A DNA stretch of 24,029 nucleotides from Ectocarpus siliculosus (lineage: Eukaryota > Sar > Phaeophyceae > Ectocarpales > Ectocarpaceae), in contig FN649729.1 in NCBI GenBank assembly GCA_000310025.1, positions 816,514 to 840,542 on the forward strand. The letters are read 5' to 3'. The stretch's first letter is position 1, and the number at the start of each line of letters is the position of its first letter. Below the pieces are notes generated by a model, which was not told the origin of the DNA, searched no databases, and was given only the letters and a program-made list of their open reading frames with translations. Positions 2,330 to 23,784 of this stretch are shown one piece after another. Position numbers and translations under genes: made by a program.

Positions 2330-4645
2330 GCGTATGCTTGGAGTGCGTTGACTTGTTGGCCATACAGAGATTCAGTGTGATGAGAAAAACACGGTGTGTG
2401 GTTCTTTTTTCTGTTTGTAGTATGCCGCTTCCCTAGATGCAGAGGTTCGAAGGAAAAACCTCTTGTGGCATCATTCGCACGGGAGGAAAACTGCCGTGCA
2501 GAGGTTTTTGTAGAAGTATCCCCCGCTGCTGTTGCGTGCCACACTACGTATGCATTGTTCTATCGAACTGCTTTGCTCTATATTGTGCCGCACCGGTGCG
2601 GGGTATGTTAGGCACACTCGCGGTCTGCTTGCTGCAGGCAACACGTTCGCAGTTTTTTGTAGATCGCACAAGCGCATTTCGACGGCACCACGGTACACGG
2701 CAAGGAAGGAAGATACGACGCCATCATTGAACTGCCTTTCGCCCGCGGTGCTGTTGATTTTTTCCTGCGCTGCGTGTTTTGTAGTAAGTGTTTCAGCATG
2801 GTCGAAAAAAAAAGGAAATCCTATCCTTCTCGCACAAATGTATTTGTTCTGTTTCGTTTGTGTTGAGTATTTTTTAATGTTCAGTTTTGGGGACGCAATA
2901 CATATATGGCGATTTGTTCTTGTGTTTTTCCCGTTCGATTGATGCTTGTCTGGGTTGTTGTGGGTATCACACCGATGGCAGTGAATAGGTATTTACCGAG
3001 GCAAGACGTACTTCGAACGTCGGGTATGGGACGGGGAGGGTTAAGTAGCGCTACAGGCTTCCTGGGAGCAACAGGTGGCTTCCTGAGACGTTCGAAAAAC
3101 CTTCCTCATTTATATTTTTTCAATTGTACACATGAAGGGGGGGGTGGATGTCGTGGGAAGGCAGGTTGTGTCGCTCTGTCTCGTCTGCTGCTAGGTACCG
3201 GCTTTAATTTTTCCATCAGCTTAGATCTATCTCACGTCAACGTGCCAGTTTGGATCGGTTTCCCGATCGTGGTGTCTATGTAGCAGCTTTCTCTGACAGC
3301 TGCGAGAATAGGCAACAAGGGCGCGTCATGTTTGTACGATGTAAACAACAGGGTGTATGTATCATGGTACAGAGAATGCTTGATGGAGAGGCATGAGGCC
3401 CAATGTATTGCGATATTGTCGTTGTATGCATACTCCATACGAGTTGCGGTAGTGTGCTCTGGCAACACGGTCGGAAAGATGATGCAAATCTAAGTGAGAA
3501 ATAGAAACTTCGAAGCATAACGCACTTGCCAGACAAGGAAAAAACAAAACAAAACAGATTCATGCCCCGACCATTGTCCTCGTTAAAGAACTGACCGAGC
3601 CAACACGACCGGACGAGGCTAGATTTGCGGAACAGCAAACGGATGGGATTGTATTAAGCGTGCAGCATCCAACCTCCACTCTTCAACGGCCCTAACTGCG
3701 AAACGAGGGAATCGTCCTCGACGGACGGTTACGATCCTTTCTAAAGGTCACCTCCACAGGAGCGTATACGGAGTGGGGGAATACACGTGTATGACGCCCG
3801 CCCTGCAAGCTACCTCCCCTCCCCCCCCTCCCCCCCCCCCCCCTTCGTCGACGTAAACATGGAAGCGAGGGAATCGTGAATCGCCTTTGGCGGACGTTGA
3901 CGATCCATTCTGAAGGTCACCTCACTGCTGGACTATACACGTGCACATGTATGTCGCCCTCCCTGCCACCAACGACCAAACTAAGAAGCCTTGTTGTTGA
4001 ACAGAACATCATATACAAGGACGCAAGCGCGAAAGAAGCTACGTGTGATACACATGTATCTTCTGACATAGATAGTAACTCTTTGATAACTCTCTGAACT
4101 GCAAAAGGTAATCATCTGCGCTGCATGTCAAAGTACTGAAACAAAGGCGAAAGACTCCCTTCCCCTAGCGTATCACAATAGATGAAAGGAGAAGCCTGAA
4201 CTGCAGTATTTCCTATCTATGCAACCATGCGCGTTAAAAGTCTCCGCGTCACGGGTTCTAGTCGATGTAGTCGGGCATTTAGTTTTGGTCACATTCAGAG
4301 CTCACATCACAGGCACAACCCGTCACATCACCGAAGATTTGGCACCGATCCATTAAGACCACTCCTCCTCCCCCCACCGTTCGTAGTTTATTGAATTTAA
4401 TGAATGAGTTCAACACTAAACACGTGCAACGGACGCCAACAGTATGTATGTGTATCCCACAAAGTATGAAGCCCACAAGGACCTCGCCATGATAGTTCGG
4501 TACCCCTCTAAACAGAGCACCCCAAACCTCGCTCGCTGACAATCTGTCCCGATTTTGGTTGTCGTCTATTTCTTGTATTCTTTGACGTTTTCGCGCGCCG
4601 CCATCACCCAGCGTGCAATCTCTCATCCTAACAATTTGGACATAA
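2330..4645. other. No gene seen: UTR / intergenic stretch between convergent genes
   Basis: The region lies between the stop of the plus-strand gene (2329) and the stop of the minus-strand CLC gene (4646). It must hold both 3' UTRs. Open frames here are short, A/T-ending in codon third positions and not linked to plausible splice sites, so I call no gene. It contains a diverged direct repeat (3703-3970) and a long C-rich tract around 3820-3843. I see no canonical polyadenylation signal that would place either transcript end. Confidence 0.6.
3703..3970. repeat. Diverged direct repeat, two ~110-bp copies
   Basis: Copy A runs about 3703-3808 and copy B about 3864-3970, offset by 161 bases. Shared words in the same order include CGAGGGAATCG, ACGATCC followed by CTAAAGGTCACCTC or CTGAAGGTCACCTC, a TATAC segment, ACACGTG, and a final CGCCC-CCCTGC block. 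A C-rich tract (about 3812-3843) separates the copies. No coding frame is conserved between them. This looks like an old segmental duplication or a small interspersed element. Confidence 0.8.
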
Positions 4646-10600: not shown

Positions 10601-11634
10601 CATCGGCAGCTCCCACATGTAGAAGCTCGAGTCCTGCGCATGGGGGCGAGGGAGATGCATCCAACAGTCTGAACATTGAATACCCTGCTCGCCGGAACTC
10701 TCCCGTGGATGTAATCACTCACAGGTATGGGCCATCCGAGTCAATTTTTCCGTTCAAGTTTTGTTCCACAAGTTATTAAATTAATAGCGATAGAGTTGGA
10801 ACGTAAAACAACGATCTTCGTGATCGCCTCGTCGAGCAATGGAATAGAGTGCGTGTCATGCCAGTGCTGTCTCTTACTACCTCCCCCATCTCCACTTTGT
10901 GTGGTACACAAACATGAAACAACCGGCTAGGTTTGACGTGGCGTGATTACATCACCTAGCCTCGCCCTGCCACCAAGAACAACATCTTCCCATACAGGGC
11001 GTTCCTTCGCCAAACCCTTACGGTCTCTTCCTCGCCCCGCTCCCCCCCCTGTTGTACCCCTTGCAGGAAAAGAGGTCCAACCTATCTCGGTCAGTCAAGC
11101 AAGCCCCTCTCACCGAGTCTTGAAACTCTCCGAACACGAAGATGTCCGAAGCCGTGAGGGGCTCGTCGAACATGGTTCTCCCCTGAAACACGAGGTAGTA
11201 CACCACCACCGTCACCACCGCTGCCGCGAAGCTGGTCCGCATCATGGTGCACACACACGCGGCGGCGGCGGTGGCGGTGGAAGCCACGATGGTCGCGTGC
11301 GCGCGCGTCGGGAGGGGGCAGGGCATCAAAATCGCTTGCTTTCGTGGAGTGTTTTTCGGCCCCTAACCACACTTATCGGGTGGAACGATGCACTGCTGTT
11401 CCTCTATTCTTGTCCTCCGCTACCAGCCTAGATGCTTGGCTGTTTAGTACCACTAGTCGCTGGGGCGTCAGGTTCTACCCAGGGGCAGTGTGGACAGGTG
11501 TCACTTTTCCGAAATGGAATTGTGGGAGATTGCGAGTTCATCGTCTTGGGCAACAAGGCAAGATCTGACTCAAAAATGTGCTCAAGACGATGATCAATTG
11601 TGAGGACGGACGACTTATGGGTGGATGTTGACTT

Positions 11635-11665
<31 letters not shown>

Positions 11666-14600
11666 CAACTTTTTTTTTTTAACCCAAGAAAAAGCCAAAC
11701 CCCCCAAAATTTTCGGGCTTCCTTTTTTGGGTTTTGGCCCCCGGGCAAAAAAAATTTGGCCGCCAAATTTTTTTTAAACCCCTTTTTTTTCCCCCTTTTA
11801 CCCCCCCCCGGAAAAAAATGCCTCCAAAAAAAGTCCCCCCCCTCCGAAAGGAAAAAAAACCCCCCCAAAAGGGGGTCGGAAAGGGGGGACCCCACCCGGG
11901 GGGAGGGCCCTGGCCCCCCCAAAACCCCCCGGGAAAAAAAGGGGAGGGAATTTTTCCCGGAACCGATACCCTGGACCGGAAAAGGTTCCCAACAAAGGGG
12001 GCACCGCCGGGGGGACCCCCCGGAAAAAAGGGTTTTTTTTTCCCGGAAAACCCCAAATTTTTTCCCGGGTTTCCCCCCAAAAAAAAAATTTTATTTGGGG
12101 GGTGGGCGGGGCCCCCCCAAAATTAAAANNNNNNNNNNNNNNNNNNNNNNNNNNNNNNNNNNNNNNNNNNNNNNNNNNNNNNNNNNNNNNNNNNNNNNNN
12201 NNNNNNNNNNNNNNNNNNNNNNNNNNNNTGGGTGGTTGTTAATTTGGGGGGGGGGGGGGGGGGGGGAGCGGCGCCAGACCTTATTCTTATACACCAAGCA
12301 AAAGCACATACACTCAAACATTGACGGCATGCCTGTTTGGTGTTTGGTCCGCTGGCAGAAAAACGTTTGCCGTCGACATTCTTTCGAAGCCACTCGTTTC
12401 TCCCGCTTTACCTCCTCCACGTCAAAAACGTCGTCCAGAACGATGCCCCCTCCTCGAGAGCGAACAAAACGCCTCCGATCGGGGTGCGGAACGCGGCAGC
12501 CACACCGGCGGCAGTGCCCATGGCCGCCAAATCCCGCCTGCGAGACCAGGGACGGGAATTGCTCGTGAACGGTATACCGTGATCGGGAACGGTTCGGCAA
12601 CGAGGTGGGCACGGCGGGTGCAACCGCGGGAGAAGTGGATGTTGTTCGCGGATGACCCAAATTTTCATCGGTGTTACTCTCGAACTAGGAATTTGACTTG
12701 GGCTGTCAGTGGTCCCCGTAAATTCGAAAATGCGTGTGTGCATGGTACGGAAAACTTTCTGGCCGGATCGTGCCTGAGAGAGAGAGCGAGAGGATGGATT
12801 CTCGCGCTAGCCACAAAGAAAACCCAGCTTGCTCTTCCTATCAGCTGAACAATTGTCGTAACACTGATGGCACGTTGTTGTAATTTGCTGTTTACAAGTC
12901 TATTGAGGCCAAAAACGAACGCCATGTCCACGGTGAACGGCCCGGGGCCCAATTGCCGGATCAAATAGACGCAGGAAGCCTCGAGGAAAATGTCTTGCGT
13001 TCTCGAGCACTGCTTTCGGGAAGGAGGCGACCAAAACTGCGTATGATCAAGAAGAGGCAGTTGCGTCTTTGTTTTTCGGTGTTGTACTCTTGCCGAGACG
13101 AGAGTTAGTCGCGGTGTGACAGTTTGTCGACAATAACGGGAAGGGTGTTGTAGTCCAGCAACCAGTCACCTCGAATGTGAGCGTCCTACACCACGCTGTT
13201 TCTGTTGGCAAGGGCACACATCACGATCTCGAGAGGAAACTAGCACGATCACACCCTATCCTCCGCGCGGAGCTACAGAGCGTTTTCCGGCAAAATAGGC
13301 ACCTGTCTCGATCGTTGCGGAACTCCGCTACGCCCGGGATCCCAGGGATGTTGGCGATACCCCCCCCGATTGCCGCTCCGGCGTGAATCATGGGGCCTTC
13401 CTTGCCGATCGGTAGCCCCGAGGCCACTCCGAGGATAACGCCAAATACTTTCGTAACCAGAGTACTCGGAGCGAGGACCTGGAGTTGTGGCCAAGAGGGG
13501 GGGGGTGTCATGTGAGGTGCTTTTTTTCGAAGGCGACACGCGTACGTGGTCAGACAAAAGCACGTCCAAGAAAACCCCATCAATCGTCGCCGTGCCCATG
13601 AATAATTTTCGAATACAGAGCCGAAGATTTGCCGTCGGTAACGCTGCTGCTATTTTTTTTTTTCGCTGGGCTTCGAAAATCAATCGGACACCATCACCTT
13701 GGGCGATAGTGCTTCACGTCGGTGCTTTCGCTGCTATTTCTGTCTAGAATTTTTCACACGTTGTTGTCTTTACAGTAAATAGACCCGCTTGTACTCTTCA
13801 CGCCAGTCGTAGCAACGAACGAAGTCACAGAGCTTCACTCGGCACCACTTGTGCCCTACTCTCGTTCAAATACTTGGGCGGTCTGTGACACGGGCCGCCG
13901 CTTGTAGCATGGTGTTGACAAGACAACATAAAACCGTAGCTGCTCCTACGTTAGCTCCTGGCAACTAGAAACTACCATGCAACAATGATCGCGAAAGCGC
14001 ACCTCATACAGTGGAAAAAGCGTCATGCTTGCGATTTCTTTTTCTTCACCTGGGGAATGCTGACCCCATTCAGCAAGCACTTGGTCTCCGGTATTCCCGA
14101 ACCATTCGACCACGGCTGATACCACACCATGCCGAAAGCCCCCACCGTGAGAAGGCTGTTGATGAACCACAGCCACGCGAACGCTGTCCCATAGCGCGTG
14201 AAGTCTAGTGGGAAGGGTTGGCACGGAGGGCACGGGGGAGCACATGGAGACAAGGGCTTTCTCGAGTCACTTGCTGCTGTTGTAACGCGGCGCTACACGA
14301 GGTGGACAGGATATGAGGTTGGGAAACACGCTGTCCCCCCCCCGCAATTCTACCGCGGTAGCGAAACTTGTCCTATTTTGCCGGCGAAAGCCAAGTCTTG
14401 CCCACCCGACGATCCGGAATCACACACAGAGGCTGTGTTTCCGGGTGACGGTGAACGGACGAGGGCAAAACCCACCGGATTCGCCCTCGTGCTCTTCAAT
14501 GATGTGGGCGATGAAATGAAGCTTGGCGTGCACGATCCACTCGGTGAAGAACGTCACGAAGCAGCCAGTTAACCCCACCGCGATACCCAACGCGAGGGTC

Positions 14601-18751: not shown

Positions 18752-21700
18752 CAGGAGCTGCTGACCCTGCCGGCGCCGCGCATCGCCAACGTCACGTACG
18801 TCCTGTGTCTGCGCGCCCGCACCATGCGCGGGTGAGTACAACAGTGCCTACCGTCGTACGTCACCGAAAGATAGATATGGTTCACCCGGGGGGTAACTTG
18901 CTGCAGCAGTGCATACGCCGGCACCGGTGGGACCGGGACCTACCCAGAGCAGATCGGAAGCCCGCGCACGAGGTCTCGGGCGGCGCGGGGGGGGGGGGCG
19001 TACTCTTATGTTTTGCATATCTTAACGGTTAAACCATTGACCACCCGTCCTCCAAAGGACGGGGCGTTGTTCCCACAGGACCGATTACTGACGGCCAATC
19101 GTTCCTTCCTACTTTGCCAAAGGGGGCTCAAAAATGTCTTCCCTAGTCTGTCTATCCTAACGATATCCCTTCCCGCCTTTTCAAACCACTTCCTACTCCC
19201 CAGTACAGCTACCGTCCTCTCCTCTCTATTCCATGCCTCAAACATCTCCCTGCACCTCCCTTATATTTTTCCCAGCTCAGTCATGTACACTTCTCTCTCC
19301 TTATTGTACAGCCGACATTCCGCGACTACATGGGGGGGGGGGCATGGCGATACGGCGTGCAACAGACAGCCCGCACAAACCTATTTTTTTGGAGTCCACT
19401 GGGTCGATCCTACATCCGGCTGTGCCATCGCCGTCAAGGAAGTTGTATCACCTCTGTAAACTCCACCTTTTGGACCCTGCGCTCCCCCCCTGGTCCAGTC
19501 CGCAGCACCCGTCGACATCCCATGTTCACGTCTCCCGCCACCTGCTGCGCAGGTGCTCGTCAACATGATGGCGGAGGTTGACGCAGACGTCCCGGGCATC
19601 GCGGACTCACGCTTGGCGGGGTGGAGGGTGGGGTCGAAACAAGCAGCTACTACTGCAACAGAGGACACAGCAGCAGTGGACAGCGATGCAGACTCGGAGG
19701 GAGGCGCGGGCGAGAGCGGAGAGCCCGGGTGCGGGGATGTGGTCGAGGTACGTACGTTGTGCTCTCTCGCCCGCCGAGTTGGTACGGATGGTGCGGCAAC
19801 CCAGCCCCTTGAGCTGAGACAGAACCAATCGCTCGGTACCATTGCCGCCGAGAGAGAACCAATCTCTCGGCATGTGCCAACAGCGCATCTTCGCGTCTCC
19901 TACCAAAAACGCAACAACAAACTCGATTGCTGTTCCTGACTTGGTGGCATCTGACAAGTGTCGAACGCATGAGGCATCAGTTGTGGGCACCGAAAGGTTC
20001 GCTGAGGACTATGTGTGTTGTGGGGTATGCGATGTTCGGGCAGCGTACTAAGTAAGGTAGCCACGAGAGGATGGTGGAGCTCATCGCTCAGATTCGAGGA
20101 AGCTGAGCCGACGAAAAAAGAGAAAGTAAACGAATTGGACGACAGCTGCTGCAAATCGAGACAAACCTGATCAATGCGAGGCCGCAAGGGGGAGGGGGGG
20201 GGGGGTATTCATCATCGAAAAAACAATTTCCCCGACCAGGACACCTCCCAATCCTTAACGTGTGAGATGGGATCTACAAGTACATATCACCCACCGAAAA
20301 AAACGAAATGGTATTCTTTATCTTGTTGAAAACATCTGTGAAGGTGAACTATCGAGTATCTGTTTTCCAGGTGGCGTCATGAGTGTTTTCGAAGAACCTG
20401 TGCTCTGCCCTAGACAACTGTCAGTACCGCCCCATGCCTTCCAGGGACCTATTCTGTCTATTGTTCCTTTTTTGGAACGAACCAGGCAAACATGCCTCCT
20501 CTTCCACGCGGGCTTTTGAGGTGTCGGGGTGGCATGCACGCGTTCCCCTTTTCCCACAGCAGCTGCAGCGTTCTTGCAGAAACGTTCGCAACAAGAGTAC
20601 TATCCCCTTTTCCTTTTGGATGAGCCTCTCTCCCAGCCCCTGCTGACGGATGTGTGCCCGAACCTGGGCGTTGAAGCCCGCTGACTGAGCCTCTTTCTCG
20701 GCCCCTGCTGACGGATGTGTGCCCGAACCTGGGCGTTGAAGCCCATTGGCTGAGCCTCCCTCGCTCTCATGGACATGAGCACGAACCTGGTCGTCGACAT
20801 ACCGCACTTACAGCACTTCCCATCTACTGTGCGCACCAACAACAGTACCCACTGACAGATTTGGTGAAGAACGAGTCAACCGACGGAAGGGAGAAGGGCG
20901 TGGCGGTCATCGTCAGCATCAACAAGCTGCGCAACGACGCCTGGAAACTGCCCGAGGACATTCTCGACAAAGCCGAGCTTCAGGTGTGTGTGTGTGTGTG
21001 TGGGTGTGTTTCCGTTCTATTTATTTTGGCGACAGTCCTCCCATTTTTCGTGGTGAGACATATATTACACGTGTGATTCAGTGTATGTAGATTACTACAC
21101 TTTTCCGTGTATTTTGTCGTACAACTACAACGACCCAGGGTCACACAGGTGCCGGATTGTTTTCCTCTTCCACATTGTGGCATGCCCCGGTCGGTGTCGC
21201 TTCTGGTTGATAAGCTGCTGGACGTCCAAGTGCTGTAGCGTTTGGTGTGTGTGTGGGGGGTAAGTTTTGTCTGCGAGGAGGCCTGCTTGTGTTCGCTCAT
21301 GCGCAACAACCGCTGAAGAAATTTTTTGTTGGGTTTTGTCGTCAGTCGCCCACGTGTGTGTGTGTGGCGACGTTTTTCGTGCGGCATAGACTGGTGTCCT
21401 GTTGTACACCAGCCGTGGTGGTGAGGCATGACACTGCTGCCGCCTTTCAGCGGATAAGCGAGTGCATGGTACGTTTTCCGGACACCGAAGTGCACGCTGC
21501 TTTTTTCGTCCAAGGCGCTCTTTGCTGCTTACGCTCCGCAAAATCGATTTTCATGGCTTCTGTTCAGCTGACAAACGGTTCAGCGGACAAAATCTGTGTA
21601 TCCGTTGTCTCTGCATTCAAGAATACCAAACGCTGACCTTTCACCTACTGCATGTAAACTAGAAACCGTCGACGGTACCTGGCGGGTTTCGGTTTATGAC

Positions 21701-23768: not shown

Positions 23769-23784
23769 CCCCCCCCCCCCCCCC
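23769..23784. repeat. Poly-C tract, 16 bases
   Basis: An uninterrupted C run, one of several long G/C homopolymers in this window (also 85-103, about 3829-3843, 11635-11661, 12246-12266). All such tracts found outside coding exons are probably length-variable and error-prone in assembly. Confidence 0.9.

Follow-up and report, generated by a model that had tools for sequence, protein, structure and literature searches.

What is a stretch of several hundred bases, drawn out into homopolymer runs, doing directly beside an assembly gap in a CLC gene of Ectocarpus siliculosus, and is it DNA of the alga at all? The window, by which we mean the whole stretch of 24,029 nucleotides that was analysed, lies at C4:816514-840542 of a 189.46-Mb genome assembled into 492 contigs. 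All 150 matches to the EsV-1-7 cysteine-rich repeat that were scored in it, out of 880 candidates, exceed the Pfam cut-off, and none of 14 control genomes has a match; this family is large in Ectocarpus and points to a brown alga. An earlier note had proposed a false duplication at a scaffold gap, in which the 490 bases left of the N run were a degraded copy, smeared into homopolymers, of clean sequence to the right. A false duplication is by far the best explanation, with 11662-12128 as a collinear copy of 12269-12730, and the region is almost certainly a product of base calling and assembly, judging from the letters themselves.

Read from left to right, the locus opens with an unblurred flank, TGGGTGGATGTTGACTT (11618-11634, plus strand), which adjoins a tract of 27 G (11635-11661, plus strand) and then 467 smeared bases (11662-12128, plus strand). 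Together these 17 + 27 + 467 bases make 511, so that the copy foreseen on this side is present at a greater length than the 490 first given. The gap itself, exactly 100 N (12129-12228), is the sole N run in the window; 100 N was also the most frequent gap length among the sampled loci, and its size is probably arbitrary. To its right stand 17 bases, TGGGTGGTTGTTAATTT (12229-12245), a tract of 21 G (12246-12266, plus strand), and the unblurred sequence 12267-12733 (plus strand), which is the source of the smear and which, like everything following the 21 G, is ordinary. Homopolymer runs average 3.24 bases in the smear vs 1.43 in 12267-12733, and across 462 other 150-base windows the mean is 1.35 with a maximum of 1.65. 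The window holds further G/C runs that adjoin neither a gap nor any blur, at 85-103, 3821-3843, 18987-18998, 20194-20205 and 23769-23784; they are single runs of 12-19 bases, apart from 3821-3843, which is made of 8 + 14.

The relation of the two sides was measured by sliding the 467-base segment, ungapped, along both strands of the window, leaving out placements that overlapped the segment or held more than 20 N. Over the 45,018 placements the mean identity was 25.1% (sd 2.1 points); the best, at +610, had 212 of 467 bases identical (45.4%), 9.6 sd above the mean, and the top six all fell at offsets 607-612. When the segment was cut into ten overlapping 80-base blocks, covering 440 of the 467 bases, every block had its best offset between 604 and 611 (offsets 570-649 tried), the value drifting slowly towards the gap, from 610-611 beside the tract down to 604 in the final block. 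With gaps allowed, the segment aligns to 12269-12730 (491 columns, 324 of them identical), which reproduces exactly the end of the copy at 12730 given by the earlier note. The alignment score is 311, while 30 dinucleotide shuffles of the left segment scored 76 +/- 15 with a maximum of 100; the alignment of both sides that had been proposed as a check thus upholds collinearity. Length is nearly conserved, to about 1-2%, since 467 bases stand for 462 and the register moves from 610 to 600. Two readings of one locus therefore lie one on each side of an assembly gap, as in a homotype false duplication. A plain repeat search of the window barely detected the copy, through a 15-base family, 80% identical, at spacing 611; the one exact 12-mer that it gave, at spacing 764, is off register and was taken as chance. 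In a whole-genome search, 12267-12733 had a single match, itself; because this search missed the known blurred copy, it would miss other blurred copies too.

What kind of copy is this? The same words do return in the same order, as had been said, and the mode of their degradation is not the homopolymer indels then supposed: the left copy superimposes one sequence on itself in two to three registers. The first 200 bases of the smear equal the source at 63.0% of positions in register 610 and at 62.0% in register 611, yet 95.5% are matched by one or the other, 99.0% within registers 609-611 and 100% within 608-612, where the null means are 25%, 25%, 43%, 57% and 74%, respectively. A three-register hidden Markov model reaches a log-likelihood of -331.2 with 0.042 register changes per base, weights of 0.20, 0.42 and 0.38, and no residual noise. 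A mutated copy with indels is represented by a one-register model, with two fewer weights; its log-likelihood is -382.7 with 0.764 register changes per base, 51 log units behind the overlay. Five registers gain next to nothing (-330.2), and the three-register model placed at four unrelated positions, fitted there with fewer rounds, gives -650 to -632. In a simulation that calls the strongest peak from the source, up to 78.2% of the called bases are recovered vs 63.4% with one register, along a path that had been fitted to those very bases. Registers one base apart are overlaid while length is kept, and the blur starts at the 27 G of 11635-11661 in the direction of reading. Overlaid ladders that keep their spacing and swallow single bases are what is expected of a Sanger trace after homopolymer slippage, not of mutation.

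The right side of the gap is not wholly clean either. Reads arriving at the same tract from the right would be expected to blur in the opposite sense just past it, and the differences bear this out. Three of the 17 bases of its entry (12229-12245) differ from the left entry (11618-11634), and all three repeat the base that precedes them when read on the minus strand. The right contig end is thus most likely a short ghost of a reverse read, namely the first 17 bases past the tract in a right-to-left read (minus strand), and the 27 G and 21 G are most likely one tract printed twice. The right copy is thus clean, as described earlier, except in these 17 bases. The two entries lie 611 bases apart (17 + 27 + 467 + 100), which is the excess, where about 610 had been predicted. 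Because the left side is a register overlay and the right side bears the ghost of the opposite read, the sequence is probably single-copy in the underlying DNA, which would make the assembly some 611 bases too long.

A course of events that would yield this picture runs as follows. A Sanger read going from left to right would traverse the poly-G tract, printed as 27 and as 21 bases, and slippage within it would leave products of several tract lengths. Past the tract, the trace would consist of two or three ladders overlaid with a shift of one base; the base caller, presumably picking the strongest peak at each position, would stretch some runs and drop single bases. Reads coming from the right would reach the same tract from the opposite side and start to blur as well. 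The assembler would then fail to overlap the contig ends, retain the blurred tail and join the contigs across a 100-N gap, so that about 500 bases would stand in the assembly in both a blurred and a clean version. The sequence itself shows the collinearity, the register overlay, the direction of the reverse ghost and the recurrence at other tracts; we infer that the reads were Sanger reads, that slippage took place during the sequencing reaction rather than earlier and that read ends of low quality had not been trimmed away. The v1 assembly of Ectocarpus is described as built from Sanger reads (PMC7386250). According to PMC11541908, V2 comprises 28 pseudo-chromosomes (176.99 Mb) plus 17.97 Mb of unplaced sequence; it contains 11,588 gaps, its contig N50 is 33 kb, and there is a V5 based on Nanopore reads.

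The present case is an instance of two described phenomena at once. A false duplication to which read errors give rise at a gap is called a homotype false duplication (PMC9516828). There, as here, sequence errors stop two readings of one locus from collapsing and the copies flank an assembly gap; here one copy carries the errors, as the overlay and the run lengths of both sides show. The published evidence consists of read depth, k-mers and discordant read pairs, whereas here it is the register overlay, taken from the bases alone; and while the word "homopolymer" is absent from the main text of PMC9516828, the error here is one identifiable process that follows a homopolymer. The second phenomenon is stutter by polymerase slippage in Sanger traces, which is stronger in repeats and homopolymers and in which, as is proposed for this locus, additional peaks on either side of the true one mislead base calling (PMC10643650). 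That account concerns single traces, with stutter peaks under a third of the main one, in contrast to the near-equal weights found here (0.20, 0.42 and 0.38), and unlike that stutter, the ghost at this locus carried several hundred bases into an assembly. A search for literature on slippage ghosts in assemblies, of Ectocarpus or in general, yielded among the matches listed (titles and abstract starts) only the general class (PMC9516828); the print record may hold others.

What does the artefact do to the gene in which it sits? Two minus-strand frames match the family Voltage_CLC (PF00654): 13326-13475 (profile positions 35-77), the preceding exon, and 12417-12545 (positions 85-127). The best solved structures for the frame holding the latter are the chloride channel protein 7jm6 (E 1.6e-13) and H+/Cl- exchange transporter 7, and on the unblurred side this exon is intact across the stretch that matches the family. 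A candidate GT donor lies at 12411-12410 on the minus strand, and the ghost is situated beyond it. The ghost of a CLC exon claimed by the earlier note corresponds to an echo of the exon at 12417-12545 (minus strand), which falls at about 11808-11937 on the same strand, a position obtained from the measured offsets (source exon minus about 609). The minus-strand frame 11428-12090, the sole frame scanned across this echo, had no Pfam match. Further along, the minus-strand frame 11018-11362 could by eye, by its likeness to CLC-7, be the next CLC exon; a Pfam scan of it gave no match, and against PDB sequences it had one match, to an oxidoreductase (E 0.19). The "322-codon ORF" of the earlier note corresponds to the plus-strand open frame 11594-12568, which counts 324 codons from stop to stop and runs through the 100 N.

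The locus is one case of an error that recurs in this assembly. Sites of at least 21 G followed by A, C or T number 876 + 936, and the poly-A equivalents 76 + 77, so that G/C sites of this length are about 12 times as many as A/T sites (1,812 vs 153); the poly-G counts are inflated because a single tract may appear to the left and again to the right of a gap, as here and at locus L005. The loci compared were 20 of 22 poly-G clusters on C1 among the first 100 matches listed (14 plus, 6 minus strand), 36 poly-G clusters on C2 among the matches listed, up to 2.98 Mb, a random sample of 20 spaced loci on C3, and, of the first 18 poly-A clusters, the 16 that remained when two lying inside poly-G loci already sampled were omitted. 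Gaps were present at 18 of 20, 33 of 36, 7 of 20 (four all N) and 11 of 16 of these loci, respectively. A flank was counted as blurred when its mean run length over 150 bases reached 2.0 or more. By this measure the 56 poly-G loci had 19 blurred gap flanks out of 72 (8/27 on C1, 11/45 on C2), which places a blurred flank at 8 of 20 loci on C1 and 10 of 36 on C2; the present window has one in two. None of the five gap flanks that make up the random control was blurred, nor any of 189 random windows off gaps, where the run length reached 1.76 at most. At the poly-A loci the figure was 10 of 15, which is not an independent count because the smears partly create poly-A runs.

Whether a flank overlays the sequence across its gap was scored where at least 200 bases were available on both sides, a pass meaning that the flank beats all 52 mismatched sources with z above 4. 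Thirteen of 27 two-sided loci passed: the present window, 5 of 9 on C1, 3 of 12 on C2, 4 of 4 at poly-A and 0 of 1 at random. Among the 54 flanks, 13 of the 15 smeared ones find their source across the gap, as do 7 of the 39 that are not smeared; the test is partly symmetric and so does not tell which side is the ghost. The other 14 loci failed, and the smeared left flanks of L019 and L090 had no source located across the gap by this test; gaps must therefore have other causes too, and not all gaps or smears are so simple. Near the far boundary of the smear, a homopolymer of at least 12 stands in 30 of 30 smeared flanks and one of at least 15 in 29, at loci that had been picked for long homopolymers, so that the tracts are near the smears partly by choice. 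Past the boundary tract the run length falls to 1.67 or less in 28 of 30, the exceptions being L026 (3.41, mis-segmented) and L056 (1.90), and the blurred stretches range from 40 to 504 bases with a median of 257 (n = 30). With generic local alignment across gaps, the true pair outscored each of its 54 mismatched pairs at 8 of 28 gaps, among them that of the window; this method is less sensitive than the overlay test, and matches between loci (scores up to 1055) lifted its null. At L010, L011, L022, L028 and L050 a gap flank has a long match to another locus's flank (cross-scores 779-1055), probably owing to dispersed repeats.

Several of these loci show other forms of the pattern. At L005 (G000:C1:345600-348000, about 900-1900), ghosts can be seen by eye on both sides of a 100-N gap: a smear past 21 G on the left, and on the right a faintly blurred copy of the left flank before 19 G. 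L002 (G000:C1:59300-61700, 969-1240) is a mirror form, with the gap directly after 24 G and, to its right, a blurred copy of the left flank followed by a second 24 G. At L053 (C2:2504400-2506400) and L084 (C3:1097000-1099000) the 100-N gap is blurred on both flanks, so that neither side is to be trusted. L019 (C1:2540900-2543400, 1017-1250) has a strong smear past 34 G, with no source found across its 57-N gap.

Could the overlaid ladders have another origin? The alternative that survives best is itself a form of base-calling and assembly artefact: a mixture of tract lengths may already have been present in the cloned DNA or the algal culture, so that a clean reaction would have read overlaid ladders. 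Long mononucleotide runs are generally unstable. The called bases fit such a mixture and slippage in vitro alike, nothing specific was found against it, and the smears near poly-A tracts (L080, L081, L085 and L086) are expected under both; we consider it possible and rather unlikely, and if true it would have the same consequence for the assembly. A bolder form of this idea, that the overlay is real length variation, with poly-G tracts varying in culture or on cloning and acting as systematic assembly breakpoints, so that the ghosts would mark hypervariable tracts genome-wide, seems to us improbable. A real tandem duplication, whose left copy would have decayed through mutation and homopolymer expansion, would account for the words, and their order, that the left and right of the gap have in common. 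Yet a decayed duplicate would be a single register with substitutions and sparse indels, and this is not what the left copy is: read in one register it needs a change at most bases while keeping its length, it stops exactly at the gap, the right flank carries a mirror blur, and the same geometry returns at other gaps. We regard such a duplication as scarcely credible. That the stretch is real, as low-complexity DNA or as a 322-codon gene, might be argued from the open frame 11594-12568, but the chance is negligible, given that the frame runs through 100 N, that two registers across the gap account for 95.5% of the first 200 bases and that the minus-strand frame 11428-12090 is without a Pfam match. 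Tandem duplication, low-complexity DNA and a novel open reading frame were accordingly rejected on the overlay, alignment, frame and Pfam evidence.

As biology, then, the region means nothing. It is a trap, made of several hundred believable bases that never existed, with open frames and an exon-like echo, and an artefact of this kind can pass for an exon duplication, an open reading frame or a low-complexity region. As the same mark stands at other gaps, the run length beside a gap offers a cheap screen, and anyone who takes gene models or intron lengths from the assembly, or surveys its low-complexity DNA, should mask the places where it is raised. The value of the case lies in this warning, and in a simple screen for those who use the assembly.
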